From an uncultured Geobacter sp. (lineage in GTDB: Bacteria; Desulfobacterota; Desulfuromonadia; Geobacterales; CAIOGM01), in assembly GCA_903857795.1 (NCBI GenBank), contig CAIOGM010000150.1:1-64000 (forward strand): DNA of 64,000 nucleotides. The letters are read 5' to 3'. A program made the translations under genes and the position numbers. The notes under the pieces were generated by a model, which was not told where the DNA came from, did not search any database, and saw nothing but the letters and a program-made list of their open reading frames with translations. Below are positions 57,338 through 64,000 of this stretch, one piece after another. Each line of letters begins with the position of its first letter. Positions within the stretch are counted from its first letter, which is position 1.

Positions 57338-58633
57338 ATGAAGAACAGATGCACCATCACGAGGATCGTCCTGCCACTGCTACTCTGCACTGCCGCCTGG
57401 CTGACGAACACCTGGGCCGGCGGCAAAATCATGCAGGATGCTGCCGTATCAGAGGTGGCCCAGCGGCTTGCCACCCTCCAGAACCGGTACGACGTTGTCA
57501 AGTACCAATGGTACGACATCTATGCCGATGGACTTGTGCCCGGCGCCGACGAAGGGGGCAAACTGATCATTGATGCCAAAGCCGCACTTTCCGGAGGCAA
57601 TGCCCCGCAGGCGGCGAAGCTGCTCGACTCGGCGGAGAAGCTCCTTTCCACCTACGAGAAGGGGGCCCTGCCCGTCTATACCCCCCCGGAGCCGATGAAG
57701 AATCAGGGAGATCCCGGGAAAATTCACCTGGGTACACTGAGCGACCTGAAGATGATGGAGTTCGCCGGAATTCCCCGGTGGAACTACTGGTACAACTTCG
57801 TCGGCAAAGGGGATGACGGCGAGCAGTACATGATCTATGTCTGCATCAACCACCATGGTACAGGGAAGATTGTTCTGCCGGTCCTCTTTGCCATCTCTTC
57901 GACGAAGAATCCCGCCGCTATCCAAAAACTGAATTTCACCACCCTGCCAGTCTATACCGAAGGAAAAGAGAGCATCACCTATTCCGTCAAGGAAGGAAAC
58001 CGGTCGCTTACCTACACCCTGGCGCAAGGGAAGGTGAAGATCTCCTACAAGGACGCCGACATGACGGTGGAAACCAGCGCCAAATTCGACTATTCGTTCT
58101 GGTACAACAAGGGGCTTGGCGGGGCGGAGATGATGCCGAATGCCGTCATGGCCGGATTTGAGGAGATGGGGGCCGCCACCGCGACATTCACCGTCAAGAA
58201 GAAAAAAATAGCAGTCAAGGGCTTTGCCGAGCAGGAAAACCTCTTCTGCGGCGGCCCCAAGAGCGCCGACTACCGGACGGCCCTCCTGAAGTTCGGCAAC
58301 GAGTGGTGGGTCCCCTTCCACACCGACCAGGTGAGCGGCCTATTCTGTATGACCGGTAGATACCGGGACGCAGGGCTCTACTACGAGGGTAACTATTACA
58401 CCCCCTCCGAATTCAAGGTGACGCCGCTCAAAGGGAACACCTCCTTCATCATCGATGCGAAGTTCGGCGGCAACGACCTCCACCTGATCGTTGATCTCTG
58501 GGGATGGGACCCCAAACTTTACGAGCACTGGGGAAACGCGGCCGGCACGGTTAACGGGAAGAAGCTGACCAACGGTTTCAGTTGGCTGGAGCATATTCCT
58601 CAGGGGGGGGTCAACAACAGCCCGCCGCAGTAA
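57338..58633 (+). CDS. Exported lipocalin-like protein, weakly CrtC/AttH-like
   Basis: 431 residues from ATG 57338 (AAAGGAGAA upstream) with a signal peptide (IVLPLLLCTAAWLTNTWAG). After a helical N-terminus, two beta-barrel-like halves are suggested: NYWYNFVGKGDDGEQYMIYV to VKGFAEQENLFC, then WVPFHTDQVSGLFCMTGRYR to the closing HWGNAAGTVNGKKLTNGFSW with LEH. The alternation and the G-x-x-EH closing motif recall CrtC/AttH two-barrel proteins, a group that includes carotenoid 1,2-hydratase. The similarity is structural in feel and not strong. It is followed by the activase gene after 69 bases on the same strand. Confidence 0.45.
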   Translation: MKNRCTITRIVLPLLLCTAAWLTNTWAGGKIMQDAAVSEVAQRLATLQNRYDVVKYQWYDIYADGLVPGADEGGKLIIDAKAALSGGNAPQAAKLLDSAEKLLSTYEKGALPVYTPPEPMKNQGDPGKIHLGTLSDLKMMEFAGIPRWNYWYNFVGKGDDGEQYMIYVCINHHGTGKIVLPVLFAISSTKNPAAIQKLNFTTLPVYTEGKESITYSVKEGNRSLTYTLAQGKVKISYKDADMTVETSAKFDYSFWYNKGLGGAEMMPNAVMAGFEEMGAATATFTVKKKKIAVKGFAEQENLFCGGPKSADYRTALLKFGNEWWVPFHTDQVSGLFCMTGRYRDAGLYYEGNYYTPSEFKVTPLKGNTSFIIDAKFGGNDLHLIVDLWGWDPKLYEHWGNAAGTVNGKKLTNGFSWLEHIPQGGVNNSPPQ

Positions 58634-58702: not shown

Positions 58703-59497
58703 ATGATCGTAGCAGGAATAGATCTGGGCTCAACAACCGGGAAGGCTGTGGTGCTGATTGATGACAAGGTATTCCTCGGAGATATCATTACGGCGACCAC
58801 GAAGCCTGCCGTTACCGCACAGATGGCAATGGATTCGGCGCTCCGCAATGCCGGGATTACCTCAGTTCAGGAGTGCGCATACATCGTCAGTACGGGATAC
58901 GGCCGACTCAAGGTTGATTTCGCCAACGAGAATATCTCCGAGATTTCCTGTCATGCCAGGGGCGCGTTTCATCTTATGCCCACCGTCAGGACCGTCATCG
59001 ATATCGGCGGCCAGGACTGCAAGGCTATTTCCTTGAGTGACAAGGGCGCTGTGCTGGGCTTTGAGATGAATGAGCGGTGCGCCGCCGGCACCGGCAGATT
59101 TTTTCAGGTGATGGCCAAGGTATTGGCATGCGGCCTCGAAGGCATTGGCGCACCGGCCAACATAAGCCCGACACCGGCAATTATTTCGACACAGTGCACC
59201 GTCTTTGCCGAGTCTGAGATTATTTCTCTGGTGAATAATGATGTCCCTTTGCCGGATATTATTACGGGGATCAACCGGTCGGTGGCGAGCAGAGTCGGAT
59301 CTCTTGCCCGAAAGGTAGGCGTTGCCGACGATCTCGTCCTGACTGGGGGATGTCACAGGAATGAAGGTCTAATCGGCGCGTTGAATGACGTTCTGGGCGT
59401 AACGATCAGGAAGTTGCCTATCGATCCCCAGTTCATGGGGGCCGTGGGCGCCGCTGTGATCGCAAAGGGAAAAGCCGCTGCTCTCGCGATATCGTAA
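58703..59497 (+). CDS. ATP-dependent activase of 2-hydroxyacyl-CoA dehydratase/double-cubane type
   Basis: 264 residues; ATG 58703 has GGGAGGGAT upstream. It has the ASKHA fold: phosphate-1 loop GIDLGSTTGKAVVL, phosphate-2 loop VIDIGGQDCK, adenosine loop LTGGCHRNEGLIGAL. C126 (NERCAAGTGRF) and C165 (STQCTVFAES) supply the two cysteines per subunit that hold one [4Fe-4S] cluster between two monomers. Relatives (HgdC, BcrA/D, YjiL) hydrolyse ATP to push one electron at very low potential into a partner enzyme. The partners here are the two subunits at 61129 and 62289. Confidence 0.93.
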   Translation: MIVAGIDLGSTTGKAVVLIDDKVFLGDIITATTKPAVTAQMAMDSALRNAGITSVQECAYIVSTGYGRLKVDFANENISEISCHARGAFHLMPTVRTVIDIGGQDCKAISLSDKGAVLGFEMNERCAAGTGRFFQVMAKVLACGLEGIGAPANISPTPAIISTQCTVFAESEIISLVNNDVPLPDIITGINRSVASRVGSLARKVGVADDLVLTGGCHRNEGLIGALNDVLGVTIRKLPIDPQFMGAVGAAVIAKGKAAALAIS

Positions 59498-59519
59498 ACA
59501 TCATCTGCGTGGATAAAAC

Positions 59520-60272
59520 ATGGGCATGACGTTACTTGACGATTCAATCTGCACGGTGCGGGAATATGTTGAGGAACTGCGATCCCGGGGGAGAGCGGTG
59601 ACCGTCTGCGACGCTCCTCCCGTCTCCATGGAGCTCCCGGTGGCTGTCGGGAAGGGGGCCCACTCAGGTCTCGTGCTTCGTGGTGACACCTGGCTGGAAC
59701 TGGGAAACCCCGAGGCCGGGTCATGTTCATGCACGCTCTTCACCGCCACGCCGGGGCTGGTCAGGGATGGCCGGGTGACGGTAATCGGTCCGGATGTCAG
59801 TGATGCCTGCGGCAAAAGTCTCCCCTTCGGTCAAATTCTGCTGATCGGAGGAGATGAGCTTCAGGAGGGAGATTGCGAGCCGCTCATGCATATGGGTGTC
59901 ATCGGCGATAGCATCGAGGGGTACATGGTTCGGAGTTCGCGGCAGAGTGTCTGGAGCAGGATCAGCAGGGATGTCGCCCTGAAGGGATTCACTCTCGAGA
60001 CCCTCGGGAGGGCACTTGAAGTGCTGCACAAGGCCGGCAGTGGCAACATACAGGCGATGGAAACCATCTTTGTGACTTCCAGCCGGGACGATCTGGAGCG
60101 TCTTGCTGAAATAGCCCGGGAGGGTCTCCGGATCACCCATGAGATAGCCAGGGTGACGTGGAAAGCCCGGGGTATTGATCTTGACTGTTCCCTGGACTGT
60201 TCCGCCTGTGAAGACAAAACGGTCTGTGACGACCTCAAGGAACTGCTGGGAGAAAGGGGATCCGCACCATGA
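59520..60272 (+). CDS. Acetyl-CoA synthase (CdhC/AcsB)-like domain protein, lacking the Ni-site end
   Basis: 250 residues from ATG 59520; no strong ribosome site, 22 bases after the activase stop. Residues 86-215 follow the CdhC pattern: VTVIGPDVSDACGKSLPFGQ, then EGYMVRSSRQSVWSRISRDV, ALKGFTLETLGRALEVLHKA and DDLERLAEIARE. In CdhC this leads to the A-cluster cysteines. Here the matching place has C223, C227, C230 and C236 (DCSLDCSACEDKTVCDDL), then the protein stops, without the later CGC that binds the distal nickel. It could hold an Fe-S cluster. It is not a functional ACS by itself. Known family: carbonyl/acetyl transfer to CoA. Role here unknown. Confidence 0.72.
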   Translation: MGMTLLDDSICTVREYVEELRSRGRAVTVCDAPPVSMELPVAVGKGAHSGLVLRGDTWLELGNPEAGSCSCTLFTATPGLVRDGRVTVIGPDVSDACGKSLPFGQILLIGGDELQEGDCEPLMHMGVIGDSIEGYMVRSSRQSVWSRISRDVALKGFTLETLGRALEVLHKAGSGNIQAMETIFVTSSRDDLERLAEIAREGLRITHEIARVTWKARGIDLDCSLDCSACEDKTVCDDLKELLGERGSAP

Positions 60273-60297: not shown

Positions 60298-61065
60298 ATG
60301 GTAGACAAACAGGTGAGACCCGGTAACGGTATGCCGAAGCCGGTGCTGGCGGTATGCGGCAAGGGTGGTGTGGGGAAGACGGCTTTCTCGGCGCTGCTGG
60401 CCCGGATTCTGATTGCGGAGCGGCTGAAGCCGCTGCTGCTCGTTGACGCCGATCCGGTGGGGGGGCTGACCTCGGCTATCGGCGAGACGGCCGTATCCAC
60501 TCTTGCTGCGGTGCGCGATCGGCTGGTCGGGCAGGCCATGTCGGGAGACAAGAGCGCCTTGGCTGATGCTGCCAGCCAGCTTGACTTTTATGTCATGAAC
60601 GCGCTGGTGGAGCACCCGGATTTCAGCCTGCTGGCCATGGGGCACAATCGGGAAAAAGGGTGCTTCTGCCCGGCAAACCAACTGCTCAAGAATGCCGTCG
60701 ATACCCTGATCTCGTCGTTTGCCGGTGTCCTCATCGACGCCGAAGCCGGGATCGAGCAGATTAATCGTGATGTTACGGGTCGAGTCACCGGCATCATCGT
60801 AGTTGTGGACGGCTCGCAACGAAGCATGAACACCCTGGAGATGATTGTCCGGATGCGGAGCTCTTCCCACGTCAGGGTGGTTGCCAACCGGGTCCCGAAA
60901 AACTTCACACTCAGCCTCGCTCCATCGGTGGTCCACCTTGGCTCTATCCCGGAAAACGAGGAACTTCGGCAGTTCGACCGGGACGGTCGCTCCCTCTGGC
61001 AGTTGCCGGCAGATAATGAAGCTCTCACCGCAGTGCGGGAGATTGCGTGGCGTCTTACCTGGTGA
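60298..61065 (+). CDS. CooC-type metal-insertion ATPase
   Basis: 255 residues from ATG 60298, with AAGGAGGTGA eight bases upstream. Deviant Walker A CGKGGVGKTAFSALLA (residues 20-35), LLLVDADPVGGL, and the CooC hallmark VLIDAEAGIEQINRDVTGRV. C122 and C124 (EKGCFCPANQLLKN) form the CxC that binds nickel between monomers in CooC. CooC/AcsF proteins load Ni into CODH and ACS. No CODH or full ACS is in the window, so its client may be the ACS-like protein just upstream. Confidence 0.9.
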   Translation: MVDKQVRPGNGMPKPVLAVCGKGGVGKTAFSALLARILIAERLKPLLLVDADPVGGLTSAIGETAVSTLAAVRDRLVGQAMSGDKSALADAASQLDFYVMNALVEHPDFSLLAMGHNREKGCFCPANQLLKNAVDTLISSFAGVLIDAEAGIEQINRDVTGRVTGIIVVVDGSQRSMNTLEMIVRMRSSSHVRVVANRVPKNFTLSLAPSVVHLGSIPENEELRQFDRDGRSLWQLPADNEALTAVREIAWRLTW

Positions 61066-61128
61066 GACACGAGTTCCCCGTTCCGCCGCATGCGTAACAA
61101 ACCTCAACAAAAGAGAGGAGAGCGTTAT

Positions 61129-62292
61129 ATGAAATCAGGCATTACATCAGACAGTTTTGAAAAATTTGTCACGATTGCAGGCAGTATCATGAACCCGTCG
61201 GTTCAGAAATTTAAAGATGGTGGCGGCAAGATCCTGGGCTATACCTGCTCATTCGTGCCTGAAGAGCTGATCATAGCCGGGGGCATACTCCCTTTCCGTA
61301 TTCGGGCGACAGGCAGCGAGAGCGCCGGACGGGCGGACGACTACTTCGAGTCGGCCAACATCTGCAGCCTGATACGCCACACCTTCGGAAAGGTGCTGAA
61401 CGGCGAATATGATTTCATCGACGGCGCCGTAATCGGCGGCGGCTGCGACGGGAACCGGCACATCCTGGACAACTGGGGAAAAAGCCCGGCGAAAATTGAG
61501 TTCCTGGATCGCATATTCATCCCGCATGCCTCAAACGAGCTTGCGGCGGAATATTTCCTGGGTCAGCTCTCCGGATTGAAGAGCAGGATCGAAGATTATT
61601 TCGGCGTAACAGTCACTGATGAAAAATTATGGAGCGCCATCAGGCTTTGCAACGAGGTCAGGGAACTTCAAAGGGAACTCTATGGCCTCAGGTCGTCCGA
61701 CAATCCGCCCATCACCGGCTCGGAAACCGTGGCTGTAATTGTAGCGGGATCATCAATGCCGAAAGAGGAGTACCGGGACGATCTGAAAGTTCTGCTTGCA
61801 GAACTGCGTAGCGCAAAAGTTCCTGATAAAAAATATGCGGCCCGCGTAATGATTGTCGGCCCCGGCCATGACGACACATCCATGAGCGATATTGTAGAAG
61901 AGCTGGGCGGCCTGGTGGTCAATGACCTGACCTGTTTCGGCGGCAAGGTGATCTTCGGCAGTGTAACGGAAGACGGGCCGGACCCGCTCAAGGCTATCGC
62001 CGATTACCAGGTGCTGACAAGGCCGTTCTGCCCGAAAAACCTCGGGGCGCATCCTGTCATCAATAAAGAATTATTTTACAAAATCAAAGAGTTCAAAGTT
62101 GATGGCATCATCGGCCAGATCTTCCTCTGCTGTGATACCTGGGGCGGCGAAGTATACATCCTGAACAAAGAGCTCAGAGCAGCCGGCATCCCCCTGCTCA
62201 GGATAGAGAGGGAATACCCCGCTGATTCTTCGGGCCAATTGAGGACGCGTGTCCAGGCCTTCATCGAAACGATATCAGGAGGTGCAGTATGA
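61129..62292 (+). CDS. 2-Hydroxyacyl-CoA dehydratase/double-cubane-cluster protein family, subunit A
   Basis: 387 residues from ATG 61129 (AGAGGAGAG upstream). Resembles E. coli YjiM and the double-cubane protein: GYTCSFVPEELIIAGGILPF (C40), ESANICSLIRHTFGKVLNGE (C79), VIGGGCDGNRHI (C106), VNDLTCFGGK (C269), IFLCCDTWGGEV (C334/C335) and the closing IEREYPADSSGQLRTRVQAF. Cysteines at these places hold the active-site Fe-S cluster in the family. Members reduce or dehydrate acyl-CoAs, or in the double-cubane type small molecules, with electrons from the activase. Overlaps the next gene by ATGA. Confidence 0.9.
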   Translation: MKSGITSDSFEKFVTIAGSIMNPSVQKFKDGGGKILGYTCSFVPEELIIAGGILPFRIRATGSESAGRADDYFESANICSLIRHTFGKVLNGEYDFIDGAVIGGGCDGNRHILDNWGKSPAKIEFLDRIFIPHASNELAAEYFLGQLSGLKSRIEDYFGVTVTDEKLWSAIRLCNEVRELQRELYGLRSSDNPPITGSETVAVIVAGSSMPKEEYRDDLKVLLAELRSAKVPDKKYAARVMIVGPGHDDTSMSDIVEELGGLVVNDLTCFGGKVIFGSVTEDGPDPLKAIADYQVLTRPFCPKNLGAHPVINKELFYKIKEFKVDGIIGQIFLCCDTWGGEVYILNKELRAAGIPLLRIEREYPADSSGQLRTRVQAFIETISGGAV

Positions 62293-63500
62293 TTGATCTG
62301 TTTTCTCAATTGAAGCTGCAAGCAGGCAAGTCGCTCGGCACTCTTTGCCTTGACCCGCAAAACGCATCACCCGGGCCGTTTGTCCTGGGCAACGGTGACT
62401 TCTTCATCGAAATCCCGGTTGCTTACGGCTGCTCATATTCAGACCTGACGCTCACCGGCGCCAACGGGACAGCACTGCCTGATGCCTCTGAACTTATCGA
62501 TAAAGCCATAGAAACCGGAGTGGAAAGCCGGATGTGTACGGCGCTCAAAGTCGCCTGCTATTATCTGGAGGCTGGACTCGTGAGAAAGCCTGATCTGATA
62601 ATTACGTCGAGTTCCTGTTGCGACGCCATGGATACGCTGGGCAATCTGCTGAACGGCTATAAACCGTGGGCAAATGTCCCCAAATTCAGGATGGATGCAC
62701 CTCACAGCTTCGACGATGAAAGCTATCGCTACATGGGCAAACAGCTGCGCAATGCAGTGACTTTCATGGAAGATGTTGTTGGCAGGAAAATGGAGTGGGA
62801 CCGGCTACGGGAAGTCTGTGTGCTGTCGAACAAACAAGATCAGTTGCTGCTGGAGTTTCAGGAATTGAAGAAGGCCGTGCCCTGTCCGGCAAACCCTGAT
62901 TTCTCAAGGCTTGGTTTTGCCTATGACAGATGGACCGGGGAAAGAGTTTCGCCGCAATTAACCGATTGGCTCGAACAGCTTGTCAGCGCCACGGAAGAGC
63001 GAGTAAAGGCAGGTTTAGGGATTGAAGGCATACATGAGAAGGTCAGGTTCCTCTGGCAGGATCTGGCCGGCAGCTGGCCCCCGGGCCTGTTGTGGGGGCG
63101 TCTGCAGCAGGAGTTGGGTGCGATTGCGATCATGGATTATATGTCATACGGAACCCTGACACCTATCGATCTTTCCAGCGAAGAGGCACTGTTCACGTCA
63201 TTGGGCAAGCGCTTTTTGCTTGAAGATCCGATGAATCGGCAGGCTTTGCACACGACCGACTTTTTCTGCAATGACATTCTGCAGATAGTCAATGATTTCA
63301 AGTGTGACGCGGTGATCATGCCGGCCCACATCGGACACCGCGACACGAACTCGCGGCTGAAAGTCGTCAGGGAGATGTGCCGCGAAAAGGGGATCCCGTG
63401 TCTGGTCATCGGCATGGACATCTGGGACAAGCGCTACATGACTCCGGATACGGCCTTCGACCGGATAAAAACATTCTTCGAAACGACAGGACTTATCTGA
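62289..63500 (+). CDS. 2-Hydroxyacyl-CoA dehydratase family, subunit B
   Basis: 403 residues, coupled to subunit A (ATGA). Same fold but clearly different sequence: IEIPVAYGCSYSDLTLTGAN (C48), SRMCTALKVACYYLEAGLVR (C83, C90), IITSSSCCDAMDTLGNLLNG (C110/C111), and the late FFCNDILQIVNDFKCDAVIM then VIGMDIWDKRYMT. It corresponds to the BcrB/HgdB-like partner. Two unlike subunits suggest a heterodimer with one or two clusters, as in benzoyl-CoA reductase, rather than the homodimer of YjiM-type proteins. Confidence 0.87.
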   Translation: MIDLFSQLKLQAGKSLGTLCLDPQNASPGPFVLGNGDFFIEIPVAYGCSYSDLTLTGANGTALPDASELIDKAIETGVESRMCTALKVACYYLEAGLVRKPDLIITSSSCCDAMDTLGNLLNGYKPWANVPKFRMDAPHSFDDESYRYMGKQLRNAVTFMEDVVGRKMEWDRLREVCVLSNKQDQLLLEFQELKKAVPCPANPDFSRLGFAYDRWTGERVSPQLTDWLEQLVSATEERVKAGLGIEGIHEKVRFLWQDLAGSWPPGLLWGRLQQELGAIAIMDYMSYGTLTPIDLSSEEALFTSLGKRFLLEDPMNRQALHTTDFFCNDILQIVNDFKCDAVIMPAHIGHRDTNSRLKVVREMCREKGIPCLVIGMDIWDKRYMTPDTAFDRIKTFFETTGLI

Positions 63501-63514
63501 TCTAAGGAGGTTTT

Positions 63515-64000
63515 ATGAAACAGAGAATCATTATCGCGTTATGTCTGCTGATCATTACCCTGTTAACCGTCCAGGCGTTATATGCCGCCAGGAAACCGGT
63601 TGCGGTAAAACAGGCGGCAGCAGCCCAAATCGACCCGAATGCATACCCTGCCGTAACTGCGGAAGAGTGGGGACAGTTGCGCTGGATGCTGAAACTTGCC
63701 GATCAGGACATTCCCGATTTCACTAATTTCCAATCCGTGGATGAACAGGGAGTCAGCGCAAGCCGTTATTCCCTTGCCTTTGGCGCCTATTTCCTGGCTG
63801 CCGAGCAGTACCACAAATTCCCGGCATGGCAGGAGACAATCAGGAATGCGTTCGACCGCTTAAATCAGAAGATGCTTGATAAACAGGTATGGGGCTACTG
63901 GGCGCATGAAAGCCTCGGTATTACAAAGTTCGAGCCCAACATGGACCGGCCTTATGCGGAAAACAAGGACCCTGTTTCTTTGGGGAATATCATGTATTCG
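63515..64000 (+). CDS. Exported linalool dehydratase/isomerase-like protein (partial)
   Basis: Only the first 162 codons are in the window; ATG 63515 has TAAGGAGG upstream, 14 bases after subunit B. A signal peptide (IIIALCLLIITLLTVQALYA) is followed by AASRYSLAFGAYFLA-like and LNQKMLDKQVWGYWAHESLG, ending in GNIMYS. These fit the linalool dehydratase/isomerase of Castellaniella (KYSIAFYAYGLA, KMKCKRVWGDWEEDGFG, ENIMYKGH). That enzyme is periplasmic and dehydrates a tertiary allylic alcohol. The early Cys of that enzyme (SRGC) is not matched, so the chemistry may differ. The catalytic His would lie just past the edge. Confidence 0.6.
   Translation, partial: MKQRIIIALCLLIITLLTVQALYAARKPVAVKQAAAAQIDPNAYPAVTAEEWGQLRWMLKLADQDIPDFTNFQSVDEQGVSASRYSLAFGAYFLAAEQYHKFPAWQETIRNAFDRLNQKMLDKQVWGYWAHESLGITKFEPNMDRPYAENKDPVSLGNIMYS

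Follow-up and report, generated by a model that had tools for sequence, protein, structure and literature searches.

What can a part of acetyl-CoA synthase (ACS) be doing when it is encoded on its own, between an activase gene and a gene for a CooC-like ATPase, in a genome that has no CODH? This question is raised by the open reading frame at positions 59520-60272 (+ strand) of the window, the stretch of 64,000 nucleotides from an uncultured Geobacter sp. that was analysed here. ACS, widely regarded as among the most ancient enzymes of carbon fixation, is known solely as an acetyl-CoA synthase/decarbonylase. The frame encodes 250 aa without interruption, and an alternative start at 59526 is equally consistent with the N-termini of the homologues. 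We call its product ACSs, for stand-alone ACS middle-domain protein.

Comparisons of sequence and of structure both led to ACS. The Pfam profile PF03598 (CdhC) matched residues 40-186 with an E value of 2.4e-15 (57.2 bits, for a cut-off of 24), and ACS structures aligned with residues 34-211 in a PDB sequence search (best E value 4e-15). A profile of 71 homologues reached ACS chains at 1.5e-24, in an alignment that extended through C236. The AlphaFold model, computed with 71 homologues as input, had a mean pLDDT of 89.9 and a pTM of 0.84. When this model was compared with the PDB by Foldseek, the first 23 matches were all ACS; it could be placed on the truncated ACS 3git with 2.7 Å over 179 columns and on the archaeal ACDS beta subunit 9c0t with 2.4 Å over 173 columns. 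Given these profile and fold matches, ACSs is the middle domain of ACS standing alone. It shares with ACS/CdhC (AcsB, ACDS beta subunit) the sequence and fold of this domain and the beginning of the A-cluster loop, but has neither the N-terminal domain nor the catalytic C-terminal domain, and its scores were far below the equivalog cut-offs of TIGR00316 (61.9 bits for 356) and NF040764 (56.7 bits for 800). The initial annotation, made from the sequence alone, had recognized a CdhC pattern in residues 86-215 and proposed a derivation from ACS, to be checked by a PF03598 search and by overlaying a model on ACS; both returned ACS, over a wider region than it had indicated. A further difference from ACS is M136, which is invariant among the ACSs homologues and stands at what we take to be the position of ACS Trp418, a residue linked to CoA binding; CoA binding by ACSs may therefore be lost. 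The middle domain of ACS itself is reported to interact with CoA (PMC12289521).

ACSs contains ten cysteines (positions 11, 30, 69, 71, 97, 119, 223, 227, 230 and 236), the last four of which form a predicted metal-site loop near the C-terminus, C223-x3-C227-x2-C230-x5-C236 (60186-60227, + strand), in place of the A-cluster loop. In the profile of 71 homologues, C223 and C227 align with the first two A-cluster cysteines and C236 with the third, the C-x8-C spacing being identical. The additional C230 takes the position of a conserved Phe in the CO alcove, numbered F512 in Moorella and F195 in CdhC (PMC11321310). ACS carries the ligands C-x2-C-x8-C-x9-C plus the CGC nickel ligands; neither CGC nor the fourth A-cluster cysteine was found in ACSs, whose chain ends 14 residues past C236, and both belong to a part of ACS beyond the portion retained. 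C227, C230 and C236 were present in all 79 homologues with complete tails, indicating that the motif is not due to chance. C223 was absent from 23 homologues, which form a single clade (support 100/100), and the invariant motif is therefore C-x2-C-x5-C. The spacing reported in the initial annotation and its statement that the protein ends before CGC were thus correct, whereas of its four-Cys cluster three positions proved invariant and the fourth, C223, depends on the clade; the poor conservation that it had named as an argument against itself was not observed.

No CODH was found in the window's genome, the sole PF03063 match being, by sequence and length, a 546-aa hybrid cluster protein, nor was a full ACS, ACSs being the only PF03598 match. 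Together with the missing CGC and fourth A-cluster cysteine, this upholds the earlier view that ACSs is not an acetyl synthase. A stand-alone part of PF03598 (UniProt B8FZT4) was noted in 2015 by Triant and Pearson, who considered it structurally compact (PMC4443539). By its description it is a compact stand-alone portion of the family like ACSs; the accessible text of that paper differs from the present account in that function, gene context and a cysteine site do not appear in it.

A search of the phylum revealed short relatives of ACSs (frames of 219-350 aa) in about 30 genomes, clearly distinct from full-length ACS (about 740 aa). Scanning of genomes yielded 44 more loci, in Chloroflexota, Elusimicrobiota, Ignavibacteriota, Acidobacteriota, Myxococcota, Binatota, Actinomycetota, Bacillota and Asgard archaea; as homologues are known from Thermodesulfobacteriota too, the family extends over many bacterial phyla and the Asgard archaea. 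The scan patterns were taken from an alignment of five relatives near the window protein, so that its counts are not a census. Among the sampled genomes, with the seed genome counted, the family occurred in 2 of 349 Bacillota and in 1 of 201 Chloroflexota. The set comprised 81 loci, or about 77 distinct ones (window included) once duplicate contigs are considered (L083=L032, L091=L033, L103=L034 and L105=L035). In the tree, all short proteins were separated from 18 full ACS by one branch with 100/100 support, and six of the 13 carrier genomes checked had no full ACS. The closest relative of the window protein, about 90% identical, is encoded in a Geobacter MAG (L077), yet ACSs was found in none of 57 other genomes of the window's order, which suggests that the gene was acquired horizontally. 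Three congeners of the window genome have neither ACSs nor CooC. A very divergent clade (L060, L062 and L065; branch of 2.57) has an acyl-CoA dehydrogenase, periplasmic binding proteins and a CoA-transferase as neighbours.

In the window, ACSs is the second of five genes, which follow one another in the order activase (58703-59497), ACSs (59520-60272), CooC-like ATPase (60298-61065), Hgd1 (61129-62292) and Hgd2 (62289-63500), all on the + strand. Of the 81 loci (four of which are duplicates), 67 have the activase on the same strand and within 9 kb of ACSs; for Hgd2 this number is 69, for Hgd1 65 and for CooC 52. The gene immediately downstream of ACSs was CooC in 48/81 loci, and the one immediately upstream was the activase or Hgd2 in 59/81. 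ACSs is thus not a stray fragment, since its homologues, which the tree sets apart from full ACS as a single clade, belong to a conserved module. This module can also be split: in one genome (G068), ACSs has none of its partners on its own contig (L065), and Hgd2, activase, Hgd1 and CooC follow each other on another (L143). In the Geobacter relative, an additional Hgd1/Hgd2 pair and a 220-aa protein lie between activase and ACSs (L077:6935-9999); the window has neither at the corresponding place (59498-59519), a clean difference within the operon. No description of the module was found in the literature on links of ACS-like proteins with CooC and Hgd/BCR, in which most subscription journals were outside reach. 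Neither a dehydratase nor an activase is named in a paper on the neighbours of CODH (PMC13056359), and the mlp gene cluster concerns corrinoid activases, a separate matter (PMC10418091).

The CooC-like protein (60298-61065, + strand) is preceded by the ribosome site AAAGGAGG, and an earlier start at 60269 is possible. Its best PDB match, over the full length, was CooC1 of Carboxydothermus (3kje, 4.3e-13). It displays the P-loop GKGGVGKT and a predicted metal-binding motif, GCFCPAN, whose CxC is kept in nearly all of 53 relatives. CooC1 binds zinc or nickel through its CxC between two monomers, with one nickel per dimer (PMC6006190). The protein therefore has the deviant Walker A, the CxC metal site and the full-length similarity of CooC1 and AcsF; unlike them, it falls in a separate clade and is linked to ACSs and Hgd instead of CODH. 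When compared with 22 unlinked CooC-family proteins from the phylum, all ACSs-linked copies formed one clade (SH-aLRT 96), and the copies located in trans to ACSs fell inside it. Pairwise distances of ACSs and CooC were correlated with r = 0.78, a value reached in 0 of 2000 permutations; this coefficient owes part of its height to the common ancestry of the host genomes, although the sequences span several phyla. A role in serving a CODH of the window's genome was rejected, there being none. Like full ACS in CODH/ACS operons, ACSs often has a CooC neighbour, and the initial annotation was right about the adjacent CooC, both the linkage and the co-variation being real. Its interpretation is supported in part: derivation from ACS, lack of synthase function and the link to CooC agree with the present results, while the Fe-S, electron-transfer or docking role and the nickel that it suggested are putative.

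That annotation had mentioned activase genes, but its interpretation left out the BadF/HgdC nature of the activase, the two HGD-D neighbours and hence an enzyme of the BzdNO/HAD/DCCP type. The activase (58703-59497, + strand; 264 aa) is ATP-dependent and of the HgdC/BzdQ/BadF type (PF01869, 3.8e-57; TIGR00241, 1.5e-69, above cut-off), and its cysteines 126 and 165 were present in 92/92 sequences of the family alignment. Hgd1 (61129-62292, + strand, in a frame opening at 61090) is an HGD-D protein (PF06050, 6.4e-79) closest to BzdN (8s02_B, 1.6e-40). Its six cysteines C53, C92, C119, C282, C314 and C348, each present in 72-74 of 74 Hgd1 sequences, reproduce the spacing of the double-cubane ligands of BzdN (Cys36/73/100/263/293/327; PMC11971306), so that Hgd1 would be expected to hold a double-cubane [8Fe-9S] cluster. 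Hgd2 (62289-63500, + strand), the candidate catalytic subunit, matched PF06050 at 8e-38 and BzdO weakly in sequence; its AlphaFold model (pLDDT 90.9) had BzdO as best Foldseek match (8s02_A, 4.4e-17). In place of the three cysteines of a catalytic [4Fe-4S] cluster, the predicted ligands of the window's Hgd2 are C83, C111 and H350, the latter aligned with BzdO Cys380. Within the family, this position is Cys in 53 proteins and His in 39, which make up the clade of the window (motif HxGHKD); the cluster of this clade may thus be unusual. A simple linkage between this His and the presence of CooC was rejected, as modules with Cys carry CooC too.

Two HGD-D subunits and a BadF/HgdC-type activase are also the components that the module has in common with BzdNOPQ, with HadBC/HgdAB and with DCCP and their activases. 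The six double-cubane cysteines of Hgd1, the BzdO fold of Hgd2 and a gene context of CoA esters are further points of agreement. In contrast to all of these, it adds the ACS-derived protein and CooC, it replaces the third cluster cysteine by His in Hgd2 of the window type, and its scores were far below the family equivalog cut-offs (141 for 454 bits with the BzdN model, 120 for 700 with HadC and 185 for 350 with double_cubane). We rate the Hgd-activase-ACSs-CooC module as a system of the benzoyl-CoA-reductase/dehydratase type that has recruited a domain of ACS.

Physiological partners of the double-cubane family are little known. With moderate confidence, and judging from sequence and gene context, we lean towards ACSs being a dedicated metallocluster subunit, possibly one that docks CoA, of an ATP-driven enzyme of the benzoyl-CoA-reductase/dehydratase type, serviced by a CooC of its own. 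In BzdNOPQ, the known or proposed path leads from an ATP-driven activase to the double-cubane cluster and on to a catalytic [4Fe-4S] cluster with the CoA ester bound (PMC11971306). By analogy, we infer the following working of the module. The activase would hydrolyse ATP and drive low-potential electrons into the double-cubane cluster of Hgd1, from which, as the conserved folds and cysteines suggest, they would pass to Hgd2, harbouring the catalytic cluster and the CoA-thioester substrate. On its rebuilt A-cluster loop, ACSs would carry an Fe-S cluster in which one site is exchangeable, and through its middle domain it may dock on the Hgd pair, where the CoA ester is bound or close to that place. 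The CooC-like ATPase would load a metal, most likely nickel, either by way of ACSs or straight into an Hgd cluster.

Several observations count against ACSs being such a subunit, among them the invariant M136 described above. Loop residues 221-240 were modelled with lower confidence (pLDDT 62-78). CooC does not adjoin ACSs in about one third of the loci; in several such cases, a CooC of the same clade was found elsewhere in the genome (G058, G132, G140 and G068). Two clusters of Hgd, activase and a same-clade CooC (L146:976-6480 and L143:2458-7650) have no ACSs nearby, and in the divergent clade of L060, L062 and L065, no Hgd or activase adjoins ACSs.

A more specific proposal, which we put forward tentatively, is a nickel- and ATP-dependent acyl-CoA enzyme, in which CooC would load nickel on the loop of ACSs. 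The resulting Ni-Fe-S site, similar to the A-cluster in miniature, would act on CoA esters jointly with the double-cubane reductase. If true, the ACS scaffold would serve biology in a second way, in addition to the synthesis of acetyl-CoA. In bacteria as in Asgard archaea, the middle domain of ACS with a remodelled loop was recruited, together with a CooC relative, beside ATP-driven enzymes of low potential by which CoA esters are dearomatised or dehydrated. Involvement of nickel would make the module a new nickel-dependent enzyme class; if no nickel is involved, ACSs would be an accessory subunit new to the double-cubane family.

The main rival, which we regard as somewhat unlikely, assigns ACSs and CooC to maturation: acting as scaffold or carrier and as ATP-driven inserter, respectively, they would build or metallate an Hgd cluster and then leave, much as CooC does for CODH, with for instance a hetero-metal at Hgd2. 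CooC is a known maturase (PMC6006190), and a possibly unusual cluster with His as third ligand in the Hgd2 of the window clade would suit such a role. So would the clusters L143 and L146, where a same-clade CooC accompanies Hgd and activase with ACSs not nearby, and the modules L069, L070, L077 and L078, which contain two Hgd pairs yet a single ACSs and a single CooC. On the other hand, ACSs and CooC are encoded just as well in modules whose Hgd2 has Cys at this position, and a metal specific to His is therefore not the common reason for their presence. Besides, BzdNO, HAD and DCCP assemble, as far as we know, without partners resembling ACSs or CooC. For the production of BzdNO in E. coli, its two genes were sufficient (PMC11971306).

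We consider it unlikely that ACSs is a plain electron carrier, that is, a recruited protein resembling ferredoxin, with a [4Fe-4S] cluster for the reduction of the activase or Hgd1, with no nickel and with CooC aiding Fe-S assembly only. Its three or four conserved cysteines would fit one [4Fe-4S] cluster, and the nickel ligands of ACS are missing. However, ferredoxin or flavodoxin-ferredoxin proteins are already present in many modules, an open site such as that of the three-Cys clade would be unusual in a simple carrier, and it is difficult to see why a dedicated, CxC-bearing CooC should co-vary with ACSs if it had no metal to deliver. Finally, that ACSs is a decayed or mis-annotated ACS fragment without function has a negligible probability and was rejected: the N- and C-terminal domains of ACS are indeed missing, and the accessible text of a 2015 study cautions that partial Pfam domains are in many cases artefactual, but the same text counts PF03598 partials as structurally compact subdomains (PMC4443539), and the frame is intact, with its length, Cys motif and neighbourhood kept in many phyla and in both bacteria and archaea.

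The surrounding genes give a hint as to the metabolism in which the putative enzyme takes part. Downstream of Hgd2 lies the gene of an exported, 592-aa protein of the linalool dehydratase/isomerase family (PF18566, 7.5e-72; 63515-64000, + strand, continuing to contig position ~65293; L113:7516-9294), a family also encoded beside the modules L069, L077 and L078. Upstream of the activase, a predicted exported protein of 431 aa that matches no Pfam family (57338-58633, + strand) has homologues, among the loci, only in these same three modules, of Geobacter, Elusimicrobia and Acidobacteria. Other modules have as neighbours, judged by sequence, acyl-CoA dehydrogenases, besides ferredoxin and flavodoxin-ferredoxin proteins, and those of Chloroflexota have thiolase-like and ChsH2-type OB-fold proteins and acyl-CoA ligases nearby. 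Taken with the linalool dehydratase/isomerase-family and 431-aa exported proteins, these neighbours hint at a role in CoA-ester metabolism, possibly that of isoprenoid-like or cyclic compounds. Upstream of the modules L073, L074 and L082, pairs of thiolase-like and ChsH2-type OB-fold proteins occur together with acyl-CoA dehydrogenases, an arrangement that recalls the gene sets of steroid side-chain degradation. Past the end of the window (G000:C150 65303-69674; L113:9304-13675), a SfLAP-family membrane protein and genes resembling those of branched-chain amino-acid ABC transporters were recognized by eye.
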